A stretch of DNA of 38,545 nt from Deltaproteobacteria bacterium (lineage in GTDB: Bacteria > Desulfobacterota > Dissulfuribacteria > Dissulfuribacterales > UBA3076). Both the position numbers and the translations under genes were made by a program. Below, piece by piece: positions 9,292 through 23,406 of the stretch; position 1 is the stretch's first letter; the number at the start of each line of letters is the position of its first letter. The notes below the pieces were generated by a model that did not search any database, was not told where the DNA came from, and was given only the letters and a program-made list of their open reading frames with translations. The stretch covers positions 1-38,545 of the forward strand of contig DQXT01000070.1 in the NCBI GenBank assembly GCA_011042225.1. Reading direction: 5' to 3'.

Positions 9292-11301
9292 TTACTCACT
9301 GAGGTGATGCAGCGTTCTGCCCATGGCCATGAGCGGGAAATAATGTCGATACATATTATAGTTTAACATAAAACCTCTGGAAAGCTCGCTGCCTTGATTC
9401 AGGTTATCCGCCGCTTTGGCAATGTCGGTGCGTTCGCCGGTTCCATAGCCGGGGAAACCGGTGCCGGTATATTGTGGCTCATTCCAGGTACCATCAGTCC
9501 GTTGCGTGGCCAGCAGCCATTCCAGCCCCCTTTCAATTACGTGATCATAGGCATGGGATCCGGTGGCCACAAGGGCCATGAGGGCCCAACCGGTCTGTGA
9601 CGCGGTACTGGGGCCACATCCTCTGAGTGTGATATCCATATAAGAGCCGCAGCTTTCGCCCCAGCCGCCGTCCGGGTTCTGGTGATCCACTATCCATTGA
9701 GCAGCCTTTTGAACATAAAGCGCATTCATGTCTTCGCCAATGGCCTTCAGAGCCGGCAGAACCGCGGCTGTCCCATAAATATGATTGACCCCCCAGCGGC
9801 CGAACCAGCTACCATCATTTTCCTGTTCCGCCCGTATATATCTGTAGGCCCTGGCAACAACAGGATCATCCAATCCCCGTCCCAGTAGCCCCAATGCCTC
9901 CAGTACATGGGCAGTAACATCAACGCTCGGCGGATCCAGCGTTTCACCGAAATCACAGAAGGGAATAAGGGTAATACAGTGGCTGTTGTTGTCCTTGTCG
10001 AAGGCACCCCAGCCCCCGTTTGAACTCTGCATGGCATTCATCCAAGCCACTGCCCTGTTTACAGCCAAATCAACCCGGCTCCTCAGGCCGGAGGGCAAAA
10101 CAGGCAGCAATCTGAGCAAAACAATTAAGGCCACTGCCGTATCATCTACATCGGGATAAAAGTCATTTTGTAGCTCAAACGCCCATCCACCCGGCTCCAC
10201 GTCTTTGACGTAGACCTGCCAGTCTCCCCCTGCCATAACCTGTTCGTTCAGGATCCAATCCAGAGCGGATTGCATCTGAGGTGTTGCAGTGAAATCCTGA
10301 TCGCAGTCCAGGACGGCCAGGAGTGAAAGCAGGGTATCCCACACAGGCGTATTGCTGGCTTGGAGATAGGTAGCACCATCTTTCTCGAATTTCCAGTATT
10401 TATTCCAGGCATCAAGTCCTGCCGCCAGCACCGGATGATCAAGGGCATATCCCTCTGCATGCAACGCCAACAAAGAATAGATCCATGGCGGCTGAATCCC
10501 GCTCCATGCACCATCTGCTTCTTGATGACGAATAATCCACTCCAGACATTTCCGGATGGCCAATTCCCTGCCAGGACAAAAGGGAAATCTGTTATACCTG
10601 CTCAACAACCTGTCAAATAAATAAAAGGGGCGCTGCCTTAAGGAAGTATTTTTTTTCCTGACCGATCGGTAGTCAAAACGGCTTCTTGACTCAGGAAAAA
10701 GCTCGTCAATCCGATATTCAGGCGAGAGTTTTCTTACAGTCCGCCTGGCCCTCAGCACTGTCAAAGGGATGATGGTGCCCCGGGCCCAAGAGGCGAACCG
10801 ATAGACATTAAACGGTGCCCAGGATGGCAGGAATATGATTTCCGGAGGCAGGGCCGGAGTAACATCCCAGGGCCATTCACCAAACAGGGCAAGCCAGTAT
10901 CTGGTAAAGACCCGGAGTCCAACCAGCCCGCCATGCTCCAAAATCCACTCTCTCGCCTTGCGGAGAGGTGGCGAATCAACCGGCATACCGGAAGCCCTGA
11001 GCGCTGTATAACACTCTACTGTGACGTTGATATCGCCCATGGGCGCCTGATAATATACCTCCCAGGAACCGTCAGGCCGCTGTTCATTCAGGATTGCCCG
11101 TATTACCGATTCAAACTTTGGATCATCTTCCACACCAAGGAAATGCATGGCCAGGACCCATTCAGCTTCCATGCAAGAATTGGTTTCCAGATTCCCCAGC
11201 CAGAAACCTTCCGGCCGCTGGTTATCCAATAACCATGCTATCCCCTTTTCAATCCCATATTGCAGGCTTTGTATGATCGTGCTATGAGGGGTCAAATTCA
11301 T
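9292..11301 (-). CDS. shc: Squalene-hopene cyclase
   Basis: This 669-residue class II triterpene cyclase converts squalene to hopene/hopanol at the membrane and is the committed step of hopanoid synthesis (HpnF). The catalytic acid motif DVDD lies at about residues 384-387 (FYPDVDDTAVAL). Several QW-type repeats are visible: RPDGSWEVYY, EADGAWSGIQP, SNGGWGAFDKDN, ENDGSWFGRWG, NPDGGWGESCG and RTDGTWNEPQ. Length is normal for the family. I chose the ATG at 11301 because AAAGGTGAT lies just upstream at a good distance; a GTG at 11313 would consume that site. It diverges from hpnG with about 41 bases between the starts, so the two genes must share or overlap control sequences. Squalene-forming enzymes are not in the window. 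Confidence 0.97.
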   Translation of the reverse strand: MNLTPHSTIIQSLQYGIEKGIAWLLDNQRPEGFWLGNLETNSCMEAEWVLAMHFLGVEDDPKFESVIRAILNEQRPDGSWEVYYQAPMGDINVTVECYTALRASGMPVDSPPLRKAREWILEHGGLVGLRVFTRYWLALFGEWPWDVTPALPPEIIFLPSWAPFNVYRFASWARGTIIPLTVLRARRTVRKLSPEYRIDELFPESRSRFDYRSVRKKNTSLRQRPFYLFDRLLSRYNRFPFCPGRELAIRKCLEWIIRHQEADGAWSGIQPPWIYSLLALHAEGYALDHPVLAAGLDAWNKYWKFEKDGATYLQASNTPVWDTLLSLLAVLDCDQDFTATPQMQSALDWILNEQVMAGGDWQVYVKDVEPGGWAFELQNDFYPDVDDTAVALIVLLRLLPVLPSGLRSRVDLAVNRAVAWMNAMQSSNGGWGAFDKDNNSHCITLIPFCDFGETLDPPSVDVTAHVLEALGLLGRGLDDPVVARAYRYIRAEQENDGSWFGRWGVNHIYGTAAVLPALKAIGEDMNALYVQKAAQWIVDHQNPDGGWGESCGSYMDITLRGCGPSTASQTGWALMALVATGSHAYDHVIERGLEWLLATQRTDGTWNEPQYTGTGFPGYGTGERTDIAKAADNLNQGSELSRGFMLNYNMYRHYFPLMAMGRTLHHLSE

Positions 11302-11342
11302 GAATTTTATCACCTTTCAATCTTACTTTACCGGCAAACGCA

Positions 11343-12149
11343 ATGCATACTGACTCGTATCCCACCATTGGCGTCTTAGCAGCCCTCCCTGCTGAAGCCA
11401 GAATATTGACTCGGACAACAGGCAAAATGGTGCAGAAATCGTCTACAAAAGGGAAAATAATTGTCCGTAAGTCAGGAATCGGCATGCAGTATGCTCGCAA
11501 ACAGGCTGAATACCTGGCTGGCATAAGTGAAGTGCTCGTATCATTCGGCATATCAGGCGGCTTACATCCCCGCCTGAAGACTGGAGACCTGGTACTGGCC
11601 GATCTGGTACTGATCTGGGATCCCGAACTGCATGGACTTCCCCCTACACAAGTTATGCCTGCCGGTTTCAGAGCCGACGCAGATATCAACAATTATATTG
11701 CAGAAAAATTTCAAGAAAACATCGTCCACTTTCATCAAGGCCCTATACTCTGTTCATCTAAACCGATCTTAACCGCAGCCTCAAAACTGAATGCTCATAG
11801 ATTGACTGGAGCATTGGCAGCTGATATGGAAAGTAGAGCGATTTGCGAAGTCGCCGCAGAGGCAGGACTTCCCTTTTTCTGTCTGCGGGCCGTCTGCGAC
11901 CCGGCCGATCAGACTGTAGCTGACACCTTACCGGAAATGGTTGATAAGCAAGGCAATCCCAGAATCGGGCATATACTGGCACATCTTGTGCGGCGTCCCT
12001 GGCTCCTGGGTGACATGATACGAATGGCCAGCCAGTTCCGCCAGGCGTTGGTTGCCCTGGAAAAGGCATGGCTCCTCGTCGGTGAACAGTTTCTATCATC
12101 TGCCGATGCACGACAAGCTATCTCCCCGGTCCGCGCAGGCAAACGATGA
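11343..12149 (+). CDS. hpnG: Hopanoid-associated phosphorylase HpnG
   Basis: This 268-residue protein belongs to the nucleoside phosphorylase/MTA-SAH nucleosidase fold. Typical parts are the opening TIGVLAALPAEARIL, the glycine-rich KSGIGMQYARKQAEYL, VSFGISGGLHPRLKTGDLVL, and the substrate-site strand AADMESRAICEVAAEAGLPF with the conserved Met-Glu. The family role is removal of adenine from adenosylhopane to give ribosylhopane, the step after HpnH. The adjacent hpnH, which converges and overlaps by 32 bases, strongly supports this over a general purine phosphorylase. No strong ribosome site precedes the ATG at 11343, but the conserved start makes it the best choice. It diverges from shc. Confidence 0.92.
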   Translation: MHTDSYPTIGVLAALPAEARILTRTTGKMVQKSSTKGKIIVRKSGIGMQYARKQAEYLAGISEVLVSFGISGGLHPRLKTGDLVLADLVLIWDPELHGLPPTQVMPAGFRADADINNYIAEKFQENIVHFHQGPILCSSKPILTAASKLNAHRLTGALAADMESRAICEVAAEAGLPFFCLRAVCDPADQTVADTLPEMVDKQGNPRIGHILAHLVRRPWLLGDMIRMASQFRQALVALEKAWLLVGEQFLSSADARQAISPVRAGKR

Positions 12150-13125
12150 ATGCCCGCCAGGGATGTTTAACGGTGTCAAGGACAGCACTTGCCTCAAATC
12201 CACAGTGGAGCATACAGTCAGCACAGCGGGGATCACGTCCCACCCCGTAACGGTTCCAATCGGTATTCTCTATCAGCTCACGGTAAGTGGCCACATAACC
12301 GTCATTAAGCAAATAACACGGCTTTTGCCAACCGAATAGGTTTCTGGTCGGATTTCCCCAAGGGGTGCATTTATAATCACGGTTTCCTGCCAAAAAATCA
12401 AGATACAGACTCGAGTGGTTAAAGGTCCAGCAAGGTTTGGTCTGATGGAGAATGTTGCTGAACAGCTCTTTTGTGCCTTCCCTTCCCAAAAAGCACTCCT
12501 GATCATCGGCTGAATCATAATTAAAACCGGCGGCAACAGTCATGGCCTCAATTCCCAGAGAGCTCAGATAGTCAAACAAACGAACCGCATCTTCCACTGT
12601 CCGTCCTTTGAAAAAAGTGGTATTGGTGGTTACCCTGAAACCAGCCCCCACTAGCCTGCAAATGGCTTCAGTAGCCTCTTTAAAAGCACCCTCACGGCAG
12701 ACGGCCTGATCATGATGTTCATACATACCGTCCAGATGGACATTGAATGTGAGATAAGGACTAGGTGAAAAATCACGGAACCGTTTTTTCAACAACAGGC
12801 CATTGGTACAAAGATATATAAACCGTTTGCGGCTGATTAGCTCATCAACAATACCGGTGATCTCCGGATGGAGCAATGGCTCGCCCCCGGCTATACTTAC
12901 AACAGGCGCGCCGCATTCCTCAGCCGCTTCCACACATTCTTTAACACTGAGATGTTTGCGCAGTATCTCCGGAGGATAATTCACCTTTCCGCAACCTTTA
13001 CAGCGCAAATTGCAGCGAAAGAGAGGTTCAAGCATCAGCACCAGAGGAAAACGCTTATGGTTCATCAGCATCTGCCTGATTATATATTTCCCGATACGGG
13101 CTTTTTGAAAAATTGGTATTCCCAT
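12118..13125 (-). CDS. hpnH: Radical SAM adenosylhopane synthase HpnH
   Basis: This 335-residue radical SAM enzyme has the cluster motif CxxxCxxC as C38, C42 and C45 (RCNLRCKGCGK), the SAM-contact strand VVSIAGGEPLLHPE, and a C-terminal Cys-rich stretch (DPRCADCMLHCGFEA). HpnH couples a 5'-deoxyadenosyl radical to diploptene and makes adenosylhopane. The start sequence (FQKARIGKYIIRQ) and length match the HpnH family rather than generic radical SAM proteins. It is the last gene of a minus-strand run ispH-DUF116-hpnH and its 3' end overlaps the convergent hpnG by 32 bases. The enzyme is oxygen-sensitive by mechanism, consistent with an anaerobe but not proof of one. Confidence 0.95.
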   Translation of the reverse strand: MGIPIFQKARIGKYIIRQMLMNHKRFPLVLMLEPLFRCNLRCKGCGKVNYPPEILRKHLSVKECVEAAEECGAPVVSIAGGEPLLHPEITGIVDELISRKRFIYLCTNGLLLKKRFRDFSPSPYLTFNVHLDGMYEHHDQAVCREGAFKEATEAICRLVGAGFRVTTNTTFFKGRTVEDAVRLFDYLSSLGIEAMTVAAGFNYDSADDQECFLGREGTKELFSNILHQTKPCWTFNHSSLYLDFLAGNRDYKCTPWGNPTRNLFGWQKPCYLLNDGYVATYRELIENTDWNRYGVGRDPRCADCMLHCGFEASAVLDTVKHPWRAFIVCLRGPGR

Positions 13126-13192: not shown

Positions 13193-14143
13193 CTATCTGA
13201 CTTCAAGGAGTCCTTCTTTGACATAGGCTGTTTCTTTGCCATAGTAATCCTGATTTTGATGTAGATTTTCCGGATAGTATTGGGGTTGCATAAATCTGCG
13301 CACGGCCCATTCTACATTTTCTATAGAGACCTGGGTATCGCGACAAGGGCCGTGAGGCCTGGTATTCAAAACCCCATAGACAGGCAACGGATAGGCATAC
13401 TGGATACCACTTGCCATATCTCGTTCGCAGGCTACGGCAATGATCATCTTCGGACGCCTCTGAACCACGACTCTACGGGCAATTGTTCCACCAGTAGCAA
13501 TGGCCAAATAGACAGAATAACGTTCGCTTAAGGAGATCAAGTCACTAATGGGACATTTGCCGCAGCGCTTGCAGTTATAGATTGAATAGGTCAGGCGCAT
13601 CTTGCATGTGGATCTCTGCAAACAATGAGGCATGAGCAGCAGCATCTCGTCCGGCTTATAGCGCGCTGCTGTCTTCAGGATGAGCTCGTTATTTACCTCC
13701 ACGAATGATGAACGGACCTTGTTTTTTGATATTCCTATAGCCTGACCAAACACGACCATAAACGGCAAAAACAGCTTGACTATCAACCCCCGCAGCCGGG
13801 GGAAAAAGGGCAGGACTTTACCGAACCTGACGCTGAGAATGAAGCTTAACGATGACAAACCGATAAGCATTATTATACAACCGATGACAAGTCCTAAAAA
13901 TATAGGTCCTAATGGATGGATATGGGCAAGGTCGAAGGTCGCCAAGGCCCAGACCAGAAAAAGAAAAAAAACCACCATTCCGTTGGTGGCCATGACCAGT
14001 CCGATAAACAGACGCTTTTTTGCCTTATCAGCCTTTTGGTCTTCCTTATCAAAGGCCTCCAGAGTCTTTAACGAGATAAGTTTCCCAGTGGCTGGATGGC
14101 CTCCAGATAACGGCTTGGCTGATTCTTCCGTATCTTCTTTCAT
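13193..14143 (-). CDS. DUF116 membrane protein with cysteine cluster
   Basis: This 316-residue protein has a cytoplasmic charged N-terminus (residues 1-43). Two or three membrane helices follow at about 45-70 (FIGLVMATNGMVVFFLFLVW), 78-104, and possibly 118-137. A soluble C-terminal domain matches DUF116. That domain holds C174, C180, C191, C194 and C197 (MPHCLQRSTC, then NCKRCGKC), plus C239 and C267, a pattern that could bind an Fe-S cluster or zinc. The family has no established biochemical function. It lies between ispH and hpnH on the same strand, with 61 and 67 base gaps, so co-transcription is likely. I infer a link to isoprenoid or hopanoid metabolism from position only. Confidence 0.85.
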   Translation of the reverse strand: MKEDTEESAKPLSGGHPATGKLISLKTLEAFDKEDQKADKAKKRLFIGLVMATNGMVVFFLFLVWALATFDLAHIHPLGPIFLGLVIGCIIMLIGLSSLSFILSVRFGKVLPFFPRLRGLIVKLFLPFMVVFGQAIGISKNKVRSSFVEVNNELILKTAARYKPDEMLLLMPHCLQRSTCKMRLTYSIYNCKRCGKCPISDLISLSERYSVYLAIATGGTIARRVVVQRRPKMIIAVACERDMASGIQYAYPLPVYGVLNTRPHGPCRDTQVSIENVEWAVRRFMQPQYYPENLHQNQDYYGKETAYVKEGLLEVR

Positions 14144-14204
14144 CGCCTTAATAACCCTTCACATTCCTTGACTGTCGCCGGGAAAAGAATAATTCAGCAT
14201 CGCT

Positions 14205-15131
14205 TCAACTCAATTGTTCTTCAAGCTCTGCCGGCTCGAATATTACCTCCTCTTTTTTGCCGGCCATCTCCTGAAATTTTGTTGCCCCGTGATTCCGCAG
14301 CCAATTGATTACACCATCAACCAGCCGCTCCGGAGCGGAAGCGCCGGCAGTCACGCCGACACGTTGTATACCCTCAAGCCAAGCCGGATCAATATCGCCG
14401 GCATCATCAATCAGGTAGCAATTAATGCCCTGGCGCATCCCCACTTCCTTGAGCCGGTTGGAGTTGGAGCTGTTTTTTGAGCCTACCACAAAAAGCAGGT
14501 CTGTTTTAGCGGCCAGTTCTTTTACGGCATTTTGCCTGTTTTGAGTGGCATAACAGATGGTTGAGGCCGGTCCTTTGATACCTGGAAACCGATTTTCCAA
14601 AGCTTGGCGTACTTCGACAATATCATCATGGCTTAGGGTGGTCTGAGTGACGTAGGCCATGCGTGCCGAATCATTCACCTTCAAGGTACTGACTTCTTCG
14701 ACGGTTGATATGAGATGGACATGCCCATCGATTCTTCCGGCAGTTCCCTCCACTTCGGGATGATCACGATGGCCGATGATGATCACACTATATCCTTCTT
14801 TATGGTATTTATTCACCATTCTATGGACACTGGCAACCAGAGGACAAGTCGCGTCGATAGTTCTAAGCCCTAGTTCAGAGGCTTGTTTTTCCGCCGCCAG
14901 GGAAACTCCATGAGCGCTGAAAATGGTAACGGCCCCCGTTGGAATATCTGCGAGACTTTCAACAAAAACCGCACCTTGTTCCCGGAATTCCTTGACCACG
15001 TGCTTATTGTGAACAATTTCATGCAGAACATAAACAGGCGCGCCGTATTTCTCAAGAGTGAGCCGGACCGTCTTGATGGCCCGGATAACACCCGCACAAA
15101 ATCCCCTCGGATTGGCCAGAATGATTTCCAC
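14205..15131 (-). CDS. ispH: 4-hydroxy-3-methylbut-2-enyl diphosphate reductase
   Basis: This 308-residue enzyme carries out the last MEP-pathway step, reducing HMBPP to IPP and DMAPP with a 4Fe-4S cluster. The three cluster cysteines are recognisable: C12 in NPRGFCAGV, one in TIDATCPLV and one in TICYATQNRQ. Substrate-binding residues sit in EIVHNKHVV and SAHGVS and in the GSKNSSNSNRL loop. Length is normal. The 5' region is AT-rich and may contain the promoter for ispH-DUF116-hpnH, but I cannot define it. Dxs and Dxr of the same pathway are also encoded in this window, in separate operons. Confidence 0.96.
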   Translation of the reverse strand: MEIILANPRGFCAGVIRAIKTVRLTLEKYGAPVYVLHEIVHNKHVVKEFREQGAVFVESLADIPTGAVTIFSAHGVSLAAEKQASELGLRTIDATCPLVASVHRMVNKYHKEGYSVIIIGHRDHPEVEGTAGRIDGHVHLISTVEEVSTLKVNDSARMAYVTQTTLSHDDIVEVRQALENRFPGIKGPASTICYATQNRQNAVKELAAKTDLLFVVGSKNSSNSNRLKEVGMRQGINCYLIDDAGDIDPAWLEGIQRVGVTAGASAPERLVDGVINWLRNHGATKFQEMAGKKEEVIFEPAELEEQLS

Positions 15132-15572: not shown

Positions 15573-16391
15573 ATGAAAATTATTTGTATATTTACTATAT
15601 GCATGTCATTTATCATTCAAACAGTCCATGTTCAGGCAGACCAGATCTTGCCGTCTCATATACTTCAGATTGAATCCGACTCAGCATCACAAAAATTCTA
15701 TACCGAAATCTTCGAAGAGAAGGACAACAAAAAATTCAAGGAGGATTGGGAAAAAGATCTCTTTTTTGAAGAAGAAATCGAGCATATCGCCGATCCGATA
15801 GAACCCTTTAACCGTGCAATATTTCAGATAAACGACAAATTATATTATTATCTTCTCAAACCTGTCTCCAAAGTCTTTTCATTTGTTATTCCCAAGGATC
15901 TGAGACTGGCCCTTGGGCGCGCTATAAATAACAGCAAGACGCCGATTAGCTGCGCCAACTGTCTGTTGCAGGGGCGCTTCAAGGATGGAGAAACCGAATT
16001 TGCCCGCCTTATTATAAATACTACACTCGGATTAGGCGGTCTATTCGATCCTGCAAGAGACTGGTGGGACATAAGAGCAAAAAAAGCTGATTTTGGCCAA
16101 ACCATGGGACATTATGGCCTAACCCATGGATTTTATATGGTCCTCCCGTTGCTTGGCCCATCCAGCGCAAGAGATGGAATTGGGACCTTTGCCGGGTATT
16201 TTACATTGCCTCAGAATTATTTCATGAACTTTCAACACAAACTCATTGTATTTTCGGTAGATATTGTCAATCATGTATCTATCAATCCAGAAGAATATGA
16301 TAATCTCAAGAGAGATGCCTTTGACCCATATATCTTTTTCAGGGATGCCTATATTCAGCACCGGGCTGAATTAATAAGGGAAAGTAGATAG
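15573..16391 (+). CDS. mlaA: MlaA/VacJ family lipid-transport protein
   Basis: The protein has 272 residues. A signal peptide spans about residues 1-22 (ICIFTICMSFIIQTVHVQAD). An unusual acidic linker (about 35-72) follows, then the MlaA domain: IADPIEPFNRAIFQINDKLYYYLLKPVSK, a TTLGLGGLFDPA core, and the C-terminal DPYIFFRDAYIQHRAE. MlaA proteins form a ring in the inner leaflet of the outer membrane and move phospholipid. The usual lipobox is missing: C5 and C10 lie inside the signal core and no Cys follows the likely cleavage site, so it is probably not lipidated. C127 and C130 form a CxxC in ISCANCLLQG. No mlaFEDB genes are near; it heads a hopanoid gene run, 39 bases before hpnA. Confidence 0.92.
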   Translation: MKIICIFTICMSFIIQTVHVQADQILPSHILQIESDSASQKFYTEIFEEKDNKKFKEDWEKDLFFEEEIEHIADPIEPFNRAIFQINDKLYYYLLKPVSKVFSFVIPKDLRLALGRAINNSKTPISCANCLLQGRFKDGETEFARLIINTTLGLGGLFDPARDWWDIRAKKADFGQTMGHYGLTHGFYMVLPLLGPSSARDGIGTFAGYFTLPQNYFMNFQHKLIVFSVDIVNHVSINPEEYDNLKRDAFDPYIFFRDAYIQHRAELIRESR

Positions 16392-16430
16392 TTACAATTG
16401 AAATATAATTTCAGAAACAAAAAGGATTCG

Positions 16431-17426
16431 ATGAATCTTGTAATCGGGGGAAGCGGTTTCATAGGCAGTCACCTCGTCAGGGAACTAGTAAAACAGGGAG
16501 AAAGGGTAAGGGTATATGACCTGAATCCGTTTCCTGAAGACGAAACGTATCAAACCGTTGAAGTAGTCCGAGGAGACATCTTGAACCTTAGCCAGCTATC
16601 TCCCGCCATGGACGGTTGCAGTACGGTCTATCATCTGGGCGGCACTCCCCAGCTATGGAGCAGAGACCCAAAATTTTTTGACCGTACAAATCACGAAGGA
16701 ACCATCAATGTACTCAATACGGCCAGGCGATCAGGAATAAAACGGCTTATCTTTACCAGTACAGAGTCCATTCTTGCCACACCTTCCGGAAAGGAACCTA
16801 TCACGGAAGACATTAAGCCGCGCATTGAAGACATGGTTGGCCCGTATTGCCGCTCCAAATTGCTGGCTGAGCAGGCCGTTTTCAGGGCTGCAAAGGAAGG
16901 TCTTCCGGCAGTTGCCGTATGCCCTACCCTGCCCATAGGACCCGGGGACAGAAATCTAACTCCTCCAGGACAAATGATATCGGATTTCCTCCAGAGAAAA
17001 ATTCCAGGTTACCTCGATTGTACACTCAATTTCATCGATGTTCGTGACGTGGCTACAGGACACCGCCTTGCTGCAGAATACGGCCGGCCGGGACGCAGAT
17101 ATATACTGGCCGCTCATAATATGACCCTCTACGAATTTTTCCAACATCTGAGCAGGATAAGTGGGGTACCCTGCCCCAAAATTAAAATCCCCTATCTTGT
17201 AGCGTTGGCCTGGAGCTATATGGAACATTATATAGGTATTGTGACGGGCAAGAGACCGAGAAGTTCAATTACCGGGGTTAAGCTATGCAAGCGTTCCCTG
17301 GAATTTAACAGCATTTGGACGTGGAAGACGTTGGGGCACCGGCCACGCCCCCTGGATGGTACTATCAGGGATGCCGTAAACTGGCACAAAAAATTTCTGG
17401 AATCAAAAAAAACGGCTATGGCTTGA
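16431..17426 (+). CDS. hpnA: Hopanoid-associated NAD-dependent sugar epimerase HpnA
   Basis: This extended short-chain dehydrogenase has 331 residues. The N-terminal Rossmann motif is GGSGFIGSHLV, the active-site YxxxK is in GPYCRSKLLAEQ with the preceding Ser/Thr in FTSTES, and NFIDVRDVATGH is typical of HpnA. The family is found with hopanoid genes; its exact substrate is not settled, though a sugar or side-chain role is assumed. I chose the ATG at 16431 because AAAGGA lies four bases upstream; a TTG at 16398 would add 11 residues but has no site. The stop overlaps the convergent sulfotransferase by 11 bases. It follows mlaA closely on the same strand. Confidence 0.88.
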   Translation: MNLVIGGSGFIGSHLVRELVKQGERVRVYDLNPFPEDETYQTVEVVRGDILNLSQLSPAMDGCSTVYHLGGTPQLWSRDPKFFDRTNHEGTINVLNTARRSGIKRLIFTSTESILATPSGKEPITEDIKPRIEDMVGPYCRSKLLAEQAVFRAAKEGLPAVAVCPTLPIGPGDRNLTPPGQMISDFLQRKIPGYLDCTLNFIDVRDVATGHRLAAEYGRPGRRYILAAHNMTLYEFFQHLSRISGVPCPKIKIPYLVALAWSYMEHYIGIVTGKRPRSSITGVKLCKRSLEFNSIWTWKTLGHRPRPLDGTIRDAVNWHKKFLESKKTAMA

Positions 17427-18543
17427 AACCATAGGCCTCAAATATAGTTCCGAGATCTCGGTATATGGTATCCTTATTAAGGCCGAAAGACTCAAGTGAA
17501 TAATGGTGTCTGCTCTTGTATTGTCTGGCCTTCAGAGTCTCTTTTTCAAGGGCCACCTCGTATCCACGGCTTAATTCCATACCAAATGCCCGGTAGATCC
17601 CGCATATTGCACTGCGGGGATCAGAAATCATATCCTCGTAGCGTACTTCTAAAAATTGATCTTCTGGAAGATTTTTTTTAAATTCATACAGATATAAATA
17701 ATATCTGCAGGTCAAATCAGCCAGTTCCCGTTTGGCCCGGGCGTCCTTTCCGGCATGAGGATCCAGCGCCTTCCATGCCGCATCAAACATACTGACCAGA
17801 GACGGTATGGGTTCGTAGGGATTCCTGACTAAATGCACAATACGAATGTCAGGCAGCAGTTCGTAAATGGAATGTAGGCGTCCGGCAATAAGAGCGACCT
17901 TTTGGAGAAGTATTTTGTCCGGTCCTGTTGCATACATATGCCTCTGCAGACAGTCCCTGTAGTAAAACATTAGTTTTTGCCGCTCTTTGTAAGGCATAAG
18001 ATCGACAAAGGTTGCCTCCTCCAGATCTTTTAAATATGGAAACAAAAGACCAAGCAAGGGACTGAGCATGGCATAAACAAAAAACATCTCATCAGACTCA
18101 GCCTTGTTAGGGCCGGTTTGGTGAATCGTTTCCCAACCTTTGAACCCCTTCTTGCTGATCCCGTTCAGTAATTTTGCTGCAGGATTGCCGAATATCCGGT
18201 CGATTTTACCTGCTGTTTCAAAAAATTTATAACAAATCACAGAAGGAAAAATCGTATGATAGAGCTTCAGATAAGAAAACTGCCGGTCCAATGCCATCAA
18301 ACGATGAGTGAATGTGGTTCCGCTGCGTGGATTTCCAATGATGTAAACCGGTGTTTTCAGGGCCTGTTTTCGAAAACCAGGGAAAAATATGTGATCAAGA
18401 AGACGCATAGAGCAAACAAATGTACGCAGGCACAGAAATGGAACAAGAAAAACGAACGTAAGACACGCATGTCGCAGTGAGAAGTGTTGTCGTGAGAATG
18501 AGAGACGTAATATCTTAAACAAAGTAGGGTAATGAAAATACAT
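17416..18543 (-). CDS. PAPS-dependent sulfotransferase family protein
   Basis: This 375-residue protein has both cofactor motifs of sulfotransferases (Sulfotransferase_3 type). The 5'-phosphosulfate loop is IGNPRSGTTFTHRLM at about residues 69-83 and the 3'-phosphate site is HLVRNPYEPIPSLV at 237-250, with the family Arg and Ser. QFLEVRYEDMISDP and the C-terminal helix with YRDLGTIFEAYGF also fit. A hydrophobic stretch at about 26-46 could anchor it in the membrane. It transfers sulfate from PAPS to a hydroxyl group in characterised relatives. It is encoded alone on the minus strand between hpnA and hpnL, with its own candidate promoter. A lipid acceptor such as a hopanoid or its sugar head group is an inference from position; no PAPS-making genes are in the window. 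Confidence 0.88.
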   Translation of the reverse strand: MYFHYPTLFKILRLSFSRQHFSLRHACLTFVFLVPFLCLRTFVCSMRLLDHIFFPGFRKQALKTPVYIIGNPRSGTTFTHRLMALDRQFSYLKLYHTIFPSVICYKFFETAGKIDRIFGNPAAKLLNGISKKGFKGWETIHQTGPNKAESDEMFFVYAMLSPLLGLLFPYLKDLEEATFVDLMPYKERQKLMFYYRDCLQRHMYATGPDKILLQKVALIAGRLHSIYELLPDIRIVHLVRNPYEPIPSLVSMFDAAWKALDPHAGKDARAKRELADLTCRYYLYLYEFKKNLPEDQFLEVRYEDMISDPRSAICGIYRAFGMELSRGYEVALEKETLKARQYKSRHHYSLESFGLNKDTIYRDLGTIFEAYGFKP

Positions 18544-18742: not shown

Positions 18743-19732
18743 ATGTCCAAGAGTCGTTTAATCTCCCTGTTTTTTTCTTTCATGGGTTTTACCCTTTTCA
18801 TATGGTTATTCATCCGTGAAGATCTCACAGGTATCTTCGCCATACTATCCATTGTCAAGTGGAAGTTCTTCTGGATAGCCAGCTACCGTATCATACCCAT
18901 CACAATAGATGCATTCGGCTGGTTGAAGCTTTTTGAAAAGGATATAATCCCGCGATTCTCTAATCTCGTTTCAGCCAGATGGATATGCGAGGCATTCAAC
19001 ACACTGTTGCCCGTAGCACAGATAGGCGGGCATTTCCTGCGTGCTAAACTGATAGGAAAAAACATCGTGGACAAAGCCAAAGCAGGAGCTACTGTGGTTG
19101 TCGATTTTACAATCGGGCTTGTCACCCAAATCCTGTTTACAATAGGTGGTCTGATTCTTCTGATACAGGAATCACAGGAGGAAGACATATATTCATGGAT
19201 TATTATAGGAATTATTGCAGGATTAGTAGCGGTTTCAGGTTTCATCTTAGCCCAGAGGACAGGCCTATTCTCCATTGGTGCAAAGGGCGTTAATCTGCTC
19301 TTAAGAAGCCGAAAAATAATGGGCCTCATAGAAAGTTCCCGCAACCTGGATCAACAAATTTCAGACTCCTATAGCCGAAAAGACAGACTCGTTTCCTGCG
19401 GATTATGGCGACTTGCGGGATGGATCGCTAAATCAGGTGAAATCTGGCTTTTTTTATATTTCGCGGGTTCTCCTGTCACTATACAAGAGGCCATGATTCT
19501 GGAAAGTCTGAGCACGGCATTCCGGAGCGTCGCCTTTGCCATCCCTGGCGGCCTTGGTGTTCAAGACGGTGGAATACTTCTTATAGGTATTATGATAGGC
19601 CTCAGTCCTGAAAAAGCCCTTGCATTGGCGCTTGTAAAACGTTTCCGTGAAATTGTCGTCGGAGTCCCTGGATTGATCTACTGGTTTATCGTCGATGGAC
19701 ATCAAGCAACTCCTCAACTTACCGGCAAGTAA
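18743..19732 (+). CDS. hpnL: HpnL-like integral membrane protein (UPF0104/LPG-synthase TM family)
   Basis: This 329-residue protein has about eight hydrophobic helices and the family stretches FNTLLPVAQIGGHFLRAKLI, AGATVVVDFTIGLVTQ and AFAIPGGLGVQDGGILLIG. These occur in the lysylphosphatidylglycerol-synthase membrane-domain/UPF0104 family that includes HpnL, a hopanoid-associated protein of undefined activity. Position between hpnA/sulfotransferase and hpnN supports HpnL. The ATG at 18743 has AAGG directly in front, which is too close for a normal site, so translation initiation may be weak or the start may differ. It is followed nine bases later by hpnN. Confidence 0.82.
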   Translation: MSKSRLISLFFSFMGFTLFIWLFIREDLTGIFAILSIVKWKFFWIASYRIIPITIDAFGWLKLFEKDIIPRFSNLVSARWICEAFNTLLPVAQIGGHFLRAKLIGKNIVDKAKAGATVVVDFTIGLVTQILFTIGGLILLIQESQEEDIYSWIIIGIIAGLVAVSGFILAQRTGLFSIGAKGVNLLLRSRKIMGLIESSRNLDQQISDSYSRKDRLVSCGLWRLAGWIAKSGEIWLFLYFAGSPVTIQEAMILESLSTAFRSVAFAIPGGLGVQDGGILLIGIMIGLSPEKALALALVKRFREIVVGVPGLIYWFIVDGHQATPQLTGK

Positions 19733-19741
19733 AATTAGTAT

Positions 19742-22396
19742 ATGTTCAAATACTTGAGAAGTTATGGATTTTGTCTGCCGTCCTGGTGGATACCTTGGGT
19801 GCTGAAACATTCATTTATAGTGTTGACAGCGGCAATATGTCTGACCTGTGTTCTAACGTCTTTCATGATAGGTCATTTCAAGATAAATGCCGACCTCACG
19901 GAAATGATCTCAAATGATTTGCACTTCCGTAAGGTGGCAAAAATCTTCCACAATGCCTTTCCTGCATTACACAACACCATCGTAGTCGTGATAGAAGCCG
20001 ATACGCCGGAACAGGCGGCACAGGCACGGGACCTTCTGGCCCTGAATCTGCGTAGCGACAGAAACATTTTCAAATCCGTTTATACTCCAGGGGGAGGACC
20101 TTTTTTCCATAAAAACGGACTGATGTATATGAGCCCTGAAAAGATCGAGGACCTGACAGACCGATTATCCGAAATTCAGCCTTTTATCGCCATTTTATCA
20201 CAGGATTTCTCTCTGCAGGGCCTCTTATCATTAATAGAAAAGTCAGTTGTTAAACATGATGAACTCATCCAGGACCACCAAGACCTGATATCTTTTTTTG
20301 ACCGCTTAAGCAGCACCTTCGAGAAGGTTGTGCATGGAACGAATCATCGCATGTCTTGGCAAGAACTCATGTTTGAACAGGAAACAAACACCCCATCAGG
20401 TTATCAATTCATTATTATACAGCCTTTTCTGGATTACCGTGCGACTCAACCTGCCCAAAAGGCCTTAAAAAGAATTCGAGGCATTGCCGATGAGCTTCAT
20501 ATTAACAAAGAAAACGGCATAAAAATCAACATAACCGGAAGACTTGCCATCAATCATGATGACTTGCTCAGTGTTCGGAGAGATATTGGAATAGCGGGCA
20601 TAGTTTCCATTATTTTGGTCGGCATCATCCTATATGTAGGACTCGGTTCAGCCCGCCTTGTGTTTGTCAGCCTTTTTACTTTATTCACGGGCCTTATCTG
20701 GACATTAGGTTTTGCCCTCCTCTTTATCGGAAGTCTCAATTTGATGTCCATTACCTTTATAGTCCTTTTTATAGGCCTCGGAATTGATTACAGCATTCAG
20801 ATCTGTTTACACTATAAAGAACTGCGATCTTCAGGACTGACAAATCCTGAGGCCATCTTAAAAGGGGTCCGGAGCGTAAGTAATACCCTCATACTATGTT
20901 CAATAACTACGGCCATCGGATTTTACGCCTATGTACCTACGGCATATGTTGGGGCGTCGGAATTGGGGCTCATCGCCGGAACCGGAATGTTTCTTAACCT
21001 GCTGGCGAACATCACCGTATTGCCCGCCCTGATGAATCTTATACCCCCGCAAAAAAGTAACTATCTGGCCCTTTCCTTAGGCAGACATATTTCAAAACTC
21101 CTTGATGCTTATGCCGTGCCGATTGTTGTGGGGGCAATTGTTTCCGGAATGGCCGCTGCTACGATCATGCACAAAGTATCTTTTGACGCAAATCCACTTA
21201 ATCTTTCGGATCCGACAACGGATTCAGTCGTCACCGCACGCGGTCTTCTTGGTACTGACAGAGGTAGTCTCTGGACAATATCAATTTTGGTATCTGACAG
21301 ACAGGAAGCCCGGAATATCGCAAAACGGCTTAGAAAGTTGAACGAAGTTGAAACGGTGATTACTATTTATGACCTCGTTCCGGAAAACCAGATCGAAAAA
21401 CTGGACCTTATTAACGATATGGCTCTCATCCTGCCCCCTGCACCGGAATTAAAGCGAGGCGCTTCATATACCCCTGAGCAAAACAAGAAGGCCCTGGAAA
21501 GTTTATACCATGTCCTAGTGGAGACGATTAACTCAAATGTTACAGACGACAAAAGTTACATTTCAGCAATTACTCGTCTTTTGGAAAATATTCAAGAATT
21601 CAGCAGACTCCTGGCAGATACCGGGAAAGAAAGAGAGCTGTTTAAGGCCCTTGAAACCAGTCTCTTGTCAAACCTTGAAATCCTTCTTGAAAATTTTAAT
21701 GACTTAATGCAGGCAGAAAAAGTTGAACTTGCAGACTTGCCTGAAGATCTAGCCCGTCGTTATGTCTCTGATGATGGCCTTTACAGGGTCCAGGTATTCC
21801 CACGAAATGACATAACCGATAGACAAAATCTGAAAAAATTTGTAACAGCGGTGCGGACAATAGCACCTGATGCCACCGATAAACCCGTCACCATCCTGGA
21901 GTCCGGCAAAACAATCTCCTCTGCATTTAAAACCGCAACTCTATTAGCCTTTGTGCTGATTACATTATTCTTGAGGATCGTATATAAAAGGTGGGTTGAG
22001 GTGTTACTTGTTATGTTTCCTGTCTTACTGGGGCTGCTATATACAATGGCCGCGACGGTGTTGCTTAATATTCCCTTCAACTTCGCCAATATTATTGTCA
22101 TTCCACTCTTACTGGGAATCGGATTGGATTTCAGTATTCATATCATGAACAGGACCAAAGAAAATCTTGGACCAAACACCGATGTCCTGGAGACCAGTAC
22201 GTCCCGCGCCGTCTTATTCAGTGCCCTTACAACCATTATCAGCTTCGGAATACTATCTTTTATGCATCACGCCGGGACCGCCAGCATGGGTAAGCTGCTT
22301 ACCATCTGCATCAGCTTCATGATCATATCTACCCTTCTGGTACTTCCTGCACTTTTGAAAATATATAAACCCTACAAACAACAGGACCCTTCATAG
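19742..22396 (+). CDS. hpnN: Hopanoid-associated RND transporter HpnN (MMPL family)
   Basis: This 884-residue inner-membrane protein has the duplicated RND/MMPL plan. The first helix is at about residues 20-45, followed by a periplasmic domain with FRKVAKIFHNAFPALHNTIVVVIEA and a first helix bundle with GLGIDYSIQICLHY. The second half contains a long periplasmic part and a bundle with LLGIGLDFSIHIMNR. The Asp in both bundle motifs is typical of proton-coupled RND pumps. HpnN is known in alphaproteobacteria to move hopanoids from the inner to the outer membrane. It follows hpnL by nine bases. The hpnM gene converges on its 3' end. No ribosome site stands out before the ATG, which fits translational coupling to hpnL. 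Confidence 0.93.
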   Translation: MFKYLRSYGFCLPSWWIPWVLKHSFIVLTAAICLTCVLTSFMIGHFKINADLTEMISNDLHFRKVAKIFHNAFPALHNTIVVVIEADTPEQAAQARDLLALNLRSDRNIFKSVYTPGGGPFFHKNGLMYMSPEKIEDLTDRLSEIQPFIAILSQDFSLQGLLSLIEKSVVKHDELIQDHQDLISFFDRLSSTFEKVVHGTNHRMSWQELMFEQETNTPSGYQFIIIQPFLDYRATQPAQKALKRIRGIADELHINKENGIKINITGRLAINHDDLLSVRRDIGIAGIVSIILVGIILYVGLGSARLVFVSLFTLFTGLIWTLGFALLFIGSLNLMSITFIVLFIGLGIDYSIQICLHYKELRSSGLTNPEAILKGVRSVSNTLILCSITTAIGFYAYVPTAYVGASELGLIAGTGMFLNLLANITVLPALMNLIPPQKSNYLALSLGRHISKLLDAYAVPIVVGAIVSGMAAATIMHKVSFDANPLNLSDPTTDSVVTARGLLGTDRGSLWTISILVSDRQEARNIAKRLRKLNEVETVITIYDLVPENQIEKLDLINDMALILPPAPELKRGASYTPEQNKKALESLYHVLVETINSNVTDDKSYISAITRLLENIQEFSRLLADTGKERELFKALETSLLSNLEILLENFNDLMQAEKVELADLPEDLARRYVSDDGLYRVQVFPRNDITDRQNLKKFVTAVRTIAPDATDKPVTILESGKTISSAFKTATLLAFVLITLFLRIVYKRWVEVLLVMFPVLLGLLYTMAATVLLNIPFNFANIIVIPLLLGIGLDFSIHIMNRTKENLGPNTDVLETSTSRAVLFSALTTIISFGILSFMHHAGTASMGKLLTICISFMIISTLLVLPALLKIYKPYKQQDPS

Positions 22397-22405
22397 GGCT
22401 TCCCC

Positions 22406-23026
22406 TCAGTCTTTCTCAATTGAGGAAAGCTCTCTCACTTTTTCCTTTAAGCCAGCATTTAATGCATCGAATCCCTCGTCTTTAAGCACTTGCTTGAATT
22501 GTGCGCGATTCATGGCCAACTGGCTGACACCGGAAACTTGAATATCAACAACACGCCAGCTTCCTTTATTTTTTAACAGAAGATACCTGAATTCTATTAT
22601 TTCCTTATTCGCTTTTATTAGGTTACTCTTAACGCCCATGACCTGTGGTCTGAATTCGGATTCTGAGACCGGTTCGAAACCTTGTCCCTTGTAATGGCTA
22701 AAACGTTGGGCATACTTGGCTATGGTCCAGACAGTATAATTATTTAAGAGCATTTTTCGCTGGTTTTCGTCCATATCCTTCCAGTATTTACCGGTAACTT
22801 TTTTGATTATATATGGGAAATCAAAGCAGCTCTTTATGACAGGCTCCAAAAGCCTGTAGCGCCCTGGAAAGCCAAGCTCATCTCCATTTTTCATGGATTC
22901 AACAAGAGCAGCATTTAATTTTTCAATTACATCGGCAGCTTTGGACTGGAGAGGCTGTCCCAATAGAGGCGATGCCGATACAATCATCAAAATGTAATAA
23001 ATGGTGATCCGTTCAAGGTTTTTCAT
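22406..23026 (-). CDS. hpnM: MlaC/HpnM family periplasmic lipid-binding protein
   Basis: The protein has about 206 residues. A signal peptide (MKNLERITIYYILMIVSASPLLGQ) is followed by a Ttg2/MlaC domain: LNAALVESMKNGDELGFPGRYRLLEPVI, CFDFPYIIKKVTGKYWKDM, a YAQRFSHYKGQGFEPVSE stretch and WRVVDIQVSGVSQLAMNRAQF at the end. MlaC relatives carry lipids across the periplasm; HpnM is the hopanoid-associated form. I chose the ATG at 23026 because it gives a proper signal peptide; the frame is open up to 23158, but that extra 44 residues are unconserved in look. The gene converges on hpnN with nine bases between. It lies on the opposite strand to hpnN, so its own promoter is needed. Confidence 0.9.
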   Translation of the reverse strand: MKNLERITIYYILMIVSASPLLGQPLQSKAADVIEKLNAALVESMKNGDELGFPGRYRLLEPVIKSCFDFPYIIKKVTGKYWKDMDENQRKMLLNNYTVWTIAKYAQRFSHYKGQGFEPVSESEFRPQVMGVKSNLIKANKEIIEFRYLLLKNKGSWRVVDIQVSGVSQLAMNRAQFKQVLKDEGFDALNAGLKEKVRELSSIEKD

Positions 23027-23406
23027 TTTTTGATTGCTCTTTGGTGATCTCAAAAAGTTTGGGATTATCATATACAGAATTGGCTTTACCTTAATATTGG
23101 CCATCATAACAGTTCTGGAAATCCGCCACCAGCCATTCGCCAGATTTATATGCAACAAACTGCTTTAGATAACAGAACTTTCCCAAATCAGAGGAGGTCT
23201 TTTATTTGCCCTTTATTGAATATAAACACGGAACCGTTACAGAAAAACACGATTGCTTATTGTAACTTCTCAAAATCAACATGTTTCTTTCTCTTTCCCC
23301 GCTATTGAATTAATATCAAGGTATTATATTTTCAGAAATGAATAAGAAATTATGAGAAAAAAACACCCCATATCCCACATATCCAAATACTCATTTTTGT
23401 GCAGTG
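23027..23406. other. Divergent intergenic region hpnM / Ppx-like gene, 380 bases
   Basis: This AT-rich gap lies upstream of both hpnM (minus) and the Ppx-like gene (plus) and should hold their promoters. The first 130 bases keep the hpnM frame open but lack a conserved protein pattern. A short inverted repeat ACGG-AA-CCGT lies at about 23230. A TTGAAT at about 23305 with AT-rich bases downstream is the best, but weak, plus-strand promoter candidate. I see no RNA gene. Confidence 0.5.

Follow-up and report, generated by a model that had tools for sequence, protein, structure and literature searches.

A sulfotransferase gene paired with a variant hpnA in a bacterial hopanoid cluster: a probable two-gene tailoring module

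Gene content of the locus

The window, by which we mean the whole stretch of 38,545 nucleotides analysed here, belongs to a draft genome of 2.05 Mb that is 96% complete. It holds a hopanoid (hpn) gene cluster in which a PAPS-type sulfotransferase gene (SULT) is embedded:

9292..11313, minus strand: squalene-hopene cyclase, SHC (TIGR01507, 654.2 bits, cut-off 431)
11343..12149, plus strand: HpnG-like phosphorylase (TIGR03468, 149.2 bits, under the cut-off of 187; the best match, in a fitting position)
12118..13125, minus strand: HpnH, adenosylhopane synthase, a radical SAM enzyme (TIGR03470, 515.6 bits, cut-off 225)
13193..14143, minus strand: DUF116 protein, conserved beside hpnH, in relatives likewise (PF01976, E 7e-55)
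14205..15131, minus strand: IspH, isoprenoid supply (TIGR00216, 318 bits, above cut-off)
15573..16391, plus strand: MlaA-like lipoprotein, directly upstream of hpnA2 (PF04333, E 9e-62)
16431..17426, plus strand: HpnA2, a variant hopanoid-associated SDR (TIGR03466, 319 bits, below the cut-off of 367.65)
17416..18543, minus strand: SULT, 375 aa, ATG start (PF13469)
18743..19732, plus strand: HpnL, flippase-like membrane protein (TIGR03476, 270.5 bits, cut-off 195.65)
19742..22396, plus strand: HpnN, RND-type hopanoid transporter (TIGR03480, 910.6 bits, cut-off 751.85)
22406..23158, minus strand: HpnM, MlaC-like periplasmic protein (TIGR03481, 174.5 bits, cut-off 160.1)

The cluster is a genuine one, with SHC, HpnH, HpnN, HpnM and HpnL all above their curated cut-offs at a single locus. 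The HpnG-like protein is diverged in relatives too, and this group may have its own form of the nucleosidase/phosphorylase step. A DUF116 membrane protein lies between ispH and hpnH in nearly all related hopanoid loci seen and is a candidate hopanoid-pathway gene. The MlaA-like gene (15573-16391) and the MlaC-like hpnM (22406-23158) flank the hpnA2-SULT region; lipid transport to the outer membrane may here be dedicated to hopanoids. In three genomes (G001, G002, and G007), a second flippase-like gene of LPG_synthase_TM appearance is located upstream of ispH-DUF116-hpnH (L016:2723-3697, L032:2804-3739, and L037:3649-4620, respectively), accompanied by glycosyltransferase-like and ABC-exporter-like genes, which may hint at a glycosylated hopanoid.

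The sulfotransferase and its sulfate donor

SULT matches Sulfotransfer_3 (PF13469) with E 1.1e-25 and 91.6 bits (cut-off 27) over profile positions 1-214 of 216, as well as Sulfotransfer_1 (E 4e-11), and it is the only Sulfotransfer_3 gene found in this draft genome. The sequence-only reading of the locus had described intact PAPS-binding motifs, and these are indeed in place: the 5'-PSB motif GNPRSGTTF occupies residues 70-78 and the 3'-PB motif LVRNPYEPIPS residues 238-248. GNPRSGTTF, R240, P242 and S248 are identical in 14/14 orthologues, all of which also begin with MYF or MYL, and transfer of sulfate from PAPS is the predicted activity. For close orthologue pairs, dN/dS is 0.09-0.145, which indicates purifying selection acting on a real gene and not a chance open reading frame. 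Ahead of the catalytic domain, at approximately residues 26-46, there is a hydrophobic segment whose 19-residue mean hydropathy is 1.97-2.5 in every copy tested. This conserved N-terminus suggests that SULT is attached to the membrane and, hence, that its acceptor is also found there. An AlphaFold model built from four sequences reached a pLDDT of 42.

As the same reading held, the gene is antiparallel to both of its neighbours, the hpnA-like gene, with which it shares an 11-bp overlap of 3' ends, and hpnL, from which it diverges across 199 bp. The promoter that had been proposed for SULT is a weak candidate: two promoter-like elements (TTGACA-N17-CATATT and TTGACA-N18-CAAAAT) precede the ATG at a distance of 77-114 bp; however, the region holds 8 such sites against 5.4 +/- 2.4 in its shuffles, which is chance level.

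PAPS can be made in the organism, since its genome encodes Sat-CysC, a bifunctional sulfate adenylyltransferase/APS kinase (844.6 bits), at a locus (L024) whose other genes resemble, by eye, surface-polysaccharide genes. Another carrier, G009, has an APS kinase gene (14039-14482) on its SULT contig, roughly 1 kb upstream of SULT itself (15540). APS kinase was not detected in two of the eight carriers checked, G005 (97% complete) and G010 (89%). It was discarded as a discriminating marker, being present in 26/46 genomes of the order irrespective of SULT.

HpnA2, a variant of HpnA

The hpnA neighbour of SULT had been taken as canonical and as an established side-chain gene; neither assumption holds. 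A 2025 survey (PMC12583986) lists hpnA, hpnB and hpnL as genes without an established function, and the protein encoded here, which we call HpnA2, scores 319.3 bits against TIGR03466, under the equivalog cut-off of 367.65. What is new here is that this neighbour belongs to a separate, non-canonical clade. Across the order to which the window's organism belongs, 18 genomes score 470-521 bits with this profile, whereas the six SULT carriers reach 311-329, under the cut-off; the SULT-adjacent copies of G424 and G425, from a second order, score 298 and 318. In aligned sequences, HpnA2 proteins are 51-90% identical to one another and 31-39% identical to canonical HpnA, and they form their own clade with support of 100/100 in a tree drawn without an outgroup.

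The open reading frame of hpnA2 opens at 16398 with TTG, and an ATG follows at 16431. The protein has the active-site motifs TSTES and YCRSK and, at the end of beta-strand 2, the NAD-type VYDL. Asp is found at this place in every HpnA2 with its N-terminus present (VYDL, VFDL, VFDR, and VLDR), whereas canonical HpnA has Arg there in nearly all copies (ALVR, VLAR, VLTR, etc.) and Asp in none. For SDR enzymes, Asp rather than Arg at this position points to NAD, not NADP, as the cofactor. Thus, HpnA2 would be expected to use NAD. A search of 395 genomes from the phylum gave no other HpnA2: the window copy scores 635 bits and the next best 310, and those top matches below the window copy that were inspected bear the canonical motif. 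Among solved structures, the nearest to HpnA2 is the putative oxidoreductase 3wj7 (213 bits); next comes 6jkg, a sterol-4-alpha-carboxylate 3-dehydrogenase (106 bits).

Distribution and co-inheritance of the pair

The order of the window's organism was represented by 46 genomes, 23 with HpnH above its cut-off and 23 without. SULT orthologues occur in 6/46 (G000, G002, G005, G007, G009, and G010; 634-698 bits), that is, in 6/23 HpnH-positive and 0/23 HpnH-negative genomes (Fisher p 0.02). A contig scan, the one search that reached beyond the window's phylum, revealed close relatives in three MAGs: on JAGYNZ010000008, where SULT has the same coordinates as on G005:C78, and on CALZIH010000011 (G424) and DRKI01000167 (G425). 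The order of G424 adds eight orthologues among 258 genomes, including G424 and G425 themselves. This gives 14 carriers in two orders, all with SULT inside an hpn cluster or right beside hpnA. The 395 genomes searched across the phylum yielded no additional orthologue, scores dropping from 736 bits to 297. It should be noted that all these genomes are drafts, so that the absences carry error. The sequence-only reading had linked the gene to hopanoids, a claim that turned on whether its relatives are scattered; the orthologues are not.

The order hpnA2-SULT-hpnL, with SULT antiparallel to both neighbours, is found in eight carriers (G000, G005, G424, G425, G448, G449, G453, and G456). Contig ends cut the view short in G452, after hpnA2-SULT, and in G451, where hpnL-SULT is seen. 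G007 has hpnA2-SULT together with hpnN-hpnM, and G009 and G010 have the hpnA2-SULT pair alone, with hpnH on another contig. In G002, SULT lies between hpnN and mlaA in an shc/hpnH cluster, with no adjoining hpnA or hpnL. The neighbourhood is kept across two orders at 54-67% identity. Relatives that lack SULT (G030, G035, G039, and G040) have hpnA abutting hpnL on the same strand.

Within the window's order, SULT occurs with HpnA2 in 6/6 genomes and with canonical HpnA in 0/18 (p 7e-6, a statistic that ignores shared ancestry), and HpnA2 accompanies SULT in all carriers of both orders where it is visible. The two trees are alike in their main shape: G007 stands apart, G009 groups with G010, and the window group is placed beside the second order. 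The pair of the window group is closer to that of another order than to that of its genus-mate G007, which suggests that SULT and HpnA2 can move between lineages as a unit. G009 and G010 retain both genes together at a distance from hpnH. G002 departs from the shared shape of the trees: its SULT has 87% identity to that of the window, whereas its HpnA2, on another contig, groups with those of G009 and G010; that both genes are kept although they are separated and have different histories argues for a functional tie. The displaced hpnA2 on G002:C17 (L030:9760-10755) is 81-85% identical to the G009/G010 copies, which are from another genus, and represents a gene replacement within the pair.

The phylum also holds more distant homologues (about 150-297 bits), which were not counted as members because they fall outside the orthologue clade, which has 100/99 support, and have no hopanoid genes around them; the weak homologues of G032 (156 bits) and G012, with 24-28% identity, were assigned to another subfamily. 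Homologues with approximately 24-35% identity occur in contexts without hopanoid genes; thus, hopanoid specificity does not extend to the entire family. Other families within the phylum contain sulfotransferases with 30-35% identity (L021 and L059-L071) in the vicinity of genes that are SDR-like, ketosynthase-like or of MMPL/RND type, and at least one of these proteins, in G046, shares the hydrophobic N-terminus. This set may comprise lipid sulfotransferases with other acceptors.

Proposed function and alternatives

We consider it probable that the two genes at positions 16431-18543 form a hopanoid-tailoring module: HpnA2 would modify the side chain or head group, and SULT would sulfate it from PAPS. 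From the genetic linkage described above, we infer that the acceptor is a hopanoid, and our best inference for the product is a sulfated hopanoid or a sulfated hopanoid-linked sugar. In such a pathway, SHC, HpnH and HpnG would yield ribosylhopane or a bacteriohopanepolyol, and HpnA2, an SDR with an NAD-type pocket, would oxidise or epimerise the polyol or sugar of the C35 side chain or head group. SULT, presumably held by its N-terminal segment at the cytoplasmic face of the inner membrane, would then move sulfate from PAPS made by Sat-CysC onto a hydroxyl, and the resulting anionic hopanoid would be carried outward by HpnN with HpnL, HpnM and MlaA. The action of HpnA2, the sulfation and the export by HpnN are all read here from the co-occurrence of the genes.

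It is conceivable, albeit unlikely, that SULT modifies some other envelope molecule, such as a surface polysaccharide, lipid A or another lipid, and that the cluster is simply an envelope-lipid region. The surroundings of Sat-CysC would fit such an acceptor, as would the MlaA and HpnM/MlaC-like phospholipid-transport genes of the same cluster, the distant homologues in non-hopanoid contexts and the location of the pair outside the cluster in G009 and G010. However, no orthologue is found in the 23 hopanoid-negative genomes of the order, and the partner is, strictly and in two orders, even when the genes lie apart, a variant of HpnA, a family named solely as hopanoid-associated.

It is very unlikely that sulfate transfer has been lost or that HpnA2 and SULT use sulfate as a leaving group, in a CurM-type sulfation/elimination that would leave the final hopanoid sulfate-free. 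The profile does match the CurM and OLS-type sulfotransferase domains (4gbm and 4gox), and the two carriers in which APS kinase went undetected could be read in the same way; however, the PAPS motifs are invariant in 14 orthologues, the similarity to CurM is low (26 bits) and confined to a portion of the C-terminal half, and no elimination partner (thioesterase) is seen adjoining SULT. An accidental neighbourhood, in which an unrelated sulfotransferase was inserted once beside hpnA and then inherited by descent, would be consistent with the antiparallel orientation of SULT as its own transcription unit and with a co-occurrence statistic that takes no account of ancestry. Nonetheless, it appears highly improbable given the degree of divergence at which the neighbourhood is kept in two orders, the presence in G002 of both genes despite their different histories, and the fact that canonical HpnA is never found with SULT in the window's order.

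The tailoring module thus remains the preferred reading. A more specific version of it, which we regard as evenly balanced between being right and wrong, is that the bacteria in question produce anionic hopanoids of an undescribed class, namely sulfate esters of a C35 bacteriohopanepolyol or its sugar head group. A dedicated two-gene branch would be responsible, in which the NAD-type HpnA2 replaces canonical HpnA and readies the side chain for a membrane-attached SULT, and which moves between lineages as a unit.

Significance and comparison with known systems

Hopanoids are the main bacterial sterol surrogates, the counterpart of cholesterol, and a leading geological biomarker. If the above interpretation is correct, sulfated hopanoids would constitute a new class of anionic lipids, produced by uncultured, anaerobic bacteria of the Desulfobacterota type. 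They would be a candidate biomarker specific to this source, and their head group would carry a fixed charge, in contrast to the known amino and cyclitol groups. A search of 5.39 million open papers, with subscription literature outside its scope, returned no sulfated hopanoid, in line with the earlier impression that the modification is undescribed. Moreover, the exchange of canonical HpnA for HpnA2 makes the step catalysed by HpnA testable, as it provides two clades with differing cofactor signatures, one of which is tied to sulfation.

Amino and cyclitol-ether head-group routes have been described, whereas the enzyme that converts ribosylhopane to bacteriohopanetetrol is unknown (PMC12583986). 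Like the HpnO (amino) and HpnI/HpnK/HpnJ (cyclitol ether) routes, SULT and HpnA2 would be accessory factors that modify the C35 side chain once HpnH and HpnG have acted (PMC12583986); unlike the proposed SULT branch, however, neither route uses PAPS or adds sulfate. HpnA2 resembles canonical HpnA (TIGR03466, hopanoid-associated sugar epimerase) in its SDR superfamily, its length, the Y-x-x-x-K pair and its place next to hpnL, but differs in its separate clade, 31-39% identity, sub-cut-off score, Asp for Arg at the end of beta 2 and occurrence only with SULT. The closest solved relatives of SULT are the Sulfotransfer_3 (PF13469) chains 2zq5 and 2z6v, which were deposited as uncharacterized proteins and have the same domain with the 5'-PSB GxPRSGTT and 3'-PB RxPxxxxxS signatures. 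They are distant (best 40 bits, or 67 with a profile), and SULT differs from them in its extra conserved hydrophobic N-terminus and its linkage to a hopanoid cluster. The sequence similarity of SULT to the CurM/OLS-type sulfotransferases is only remote.
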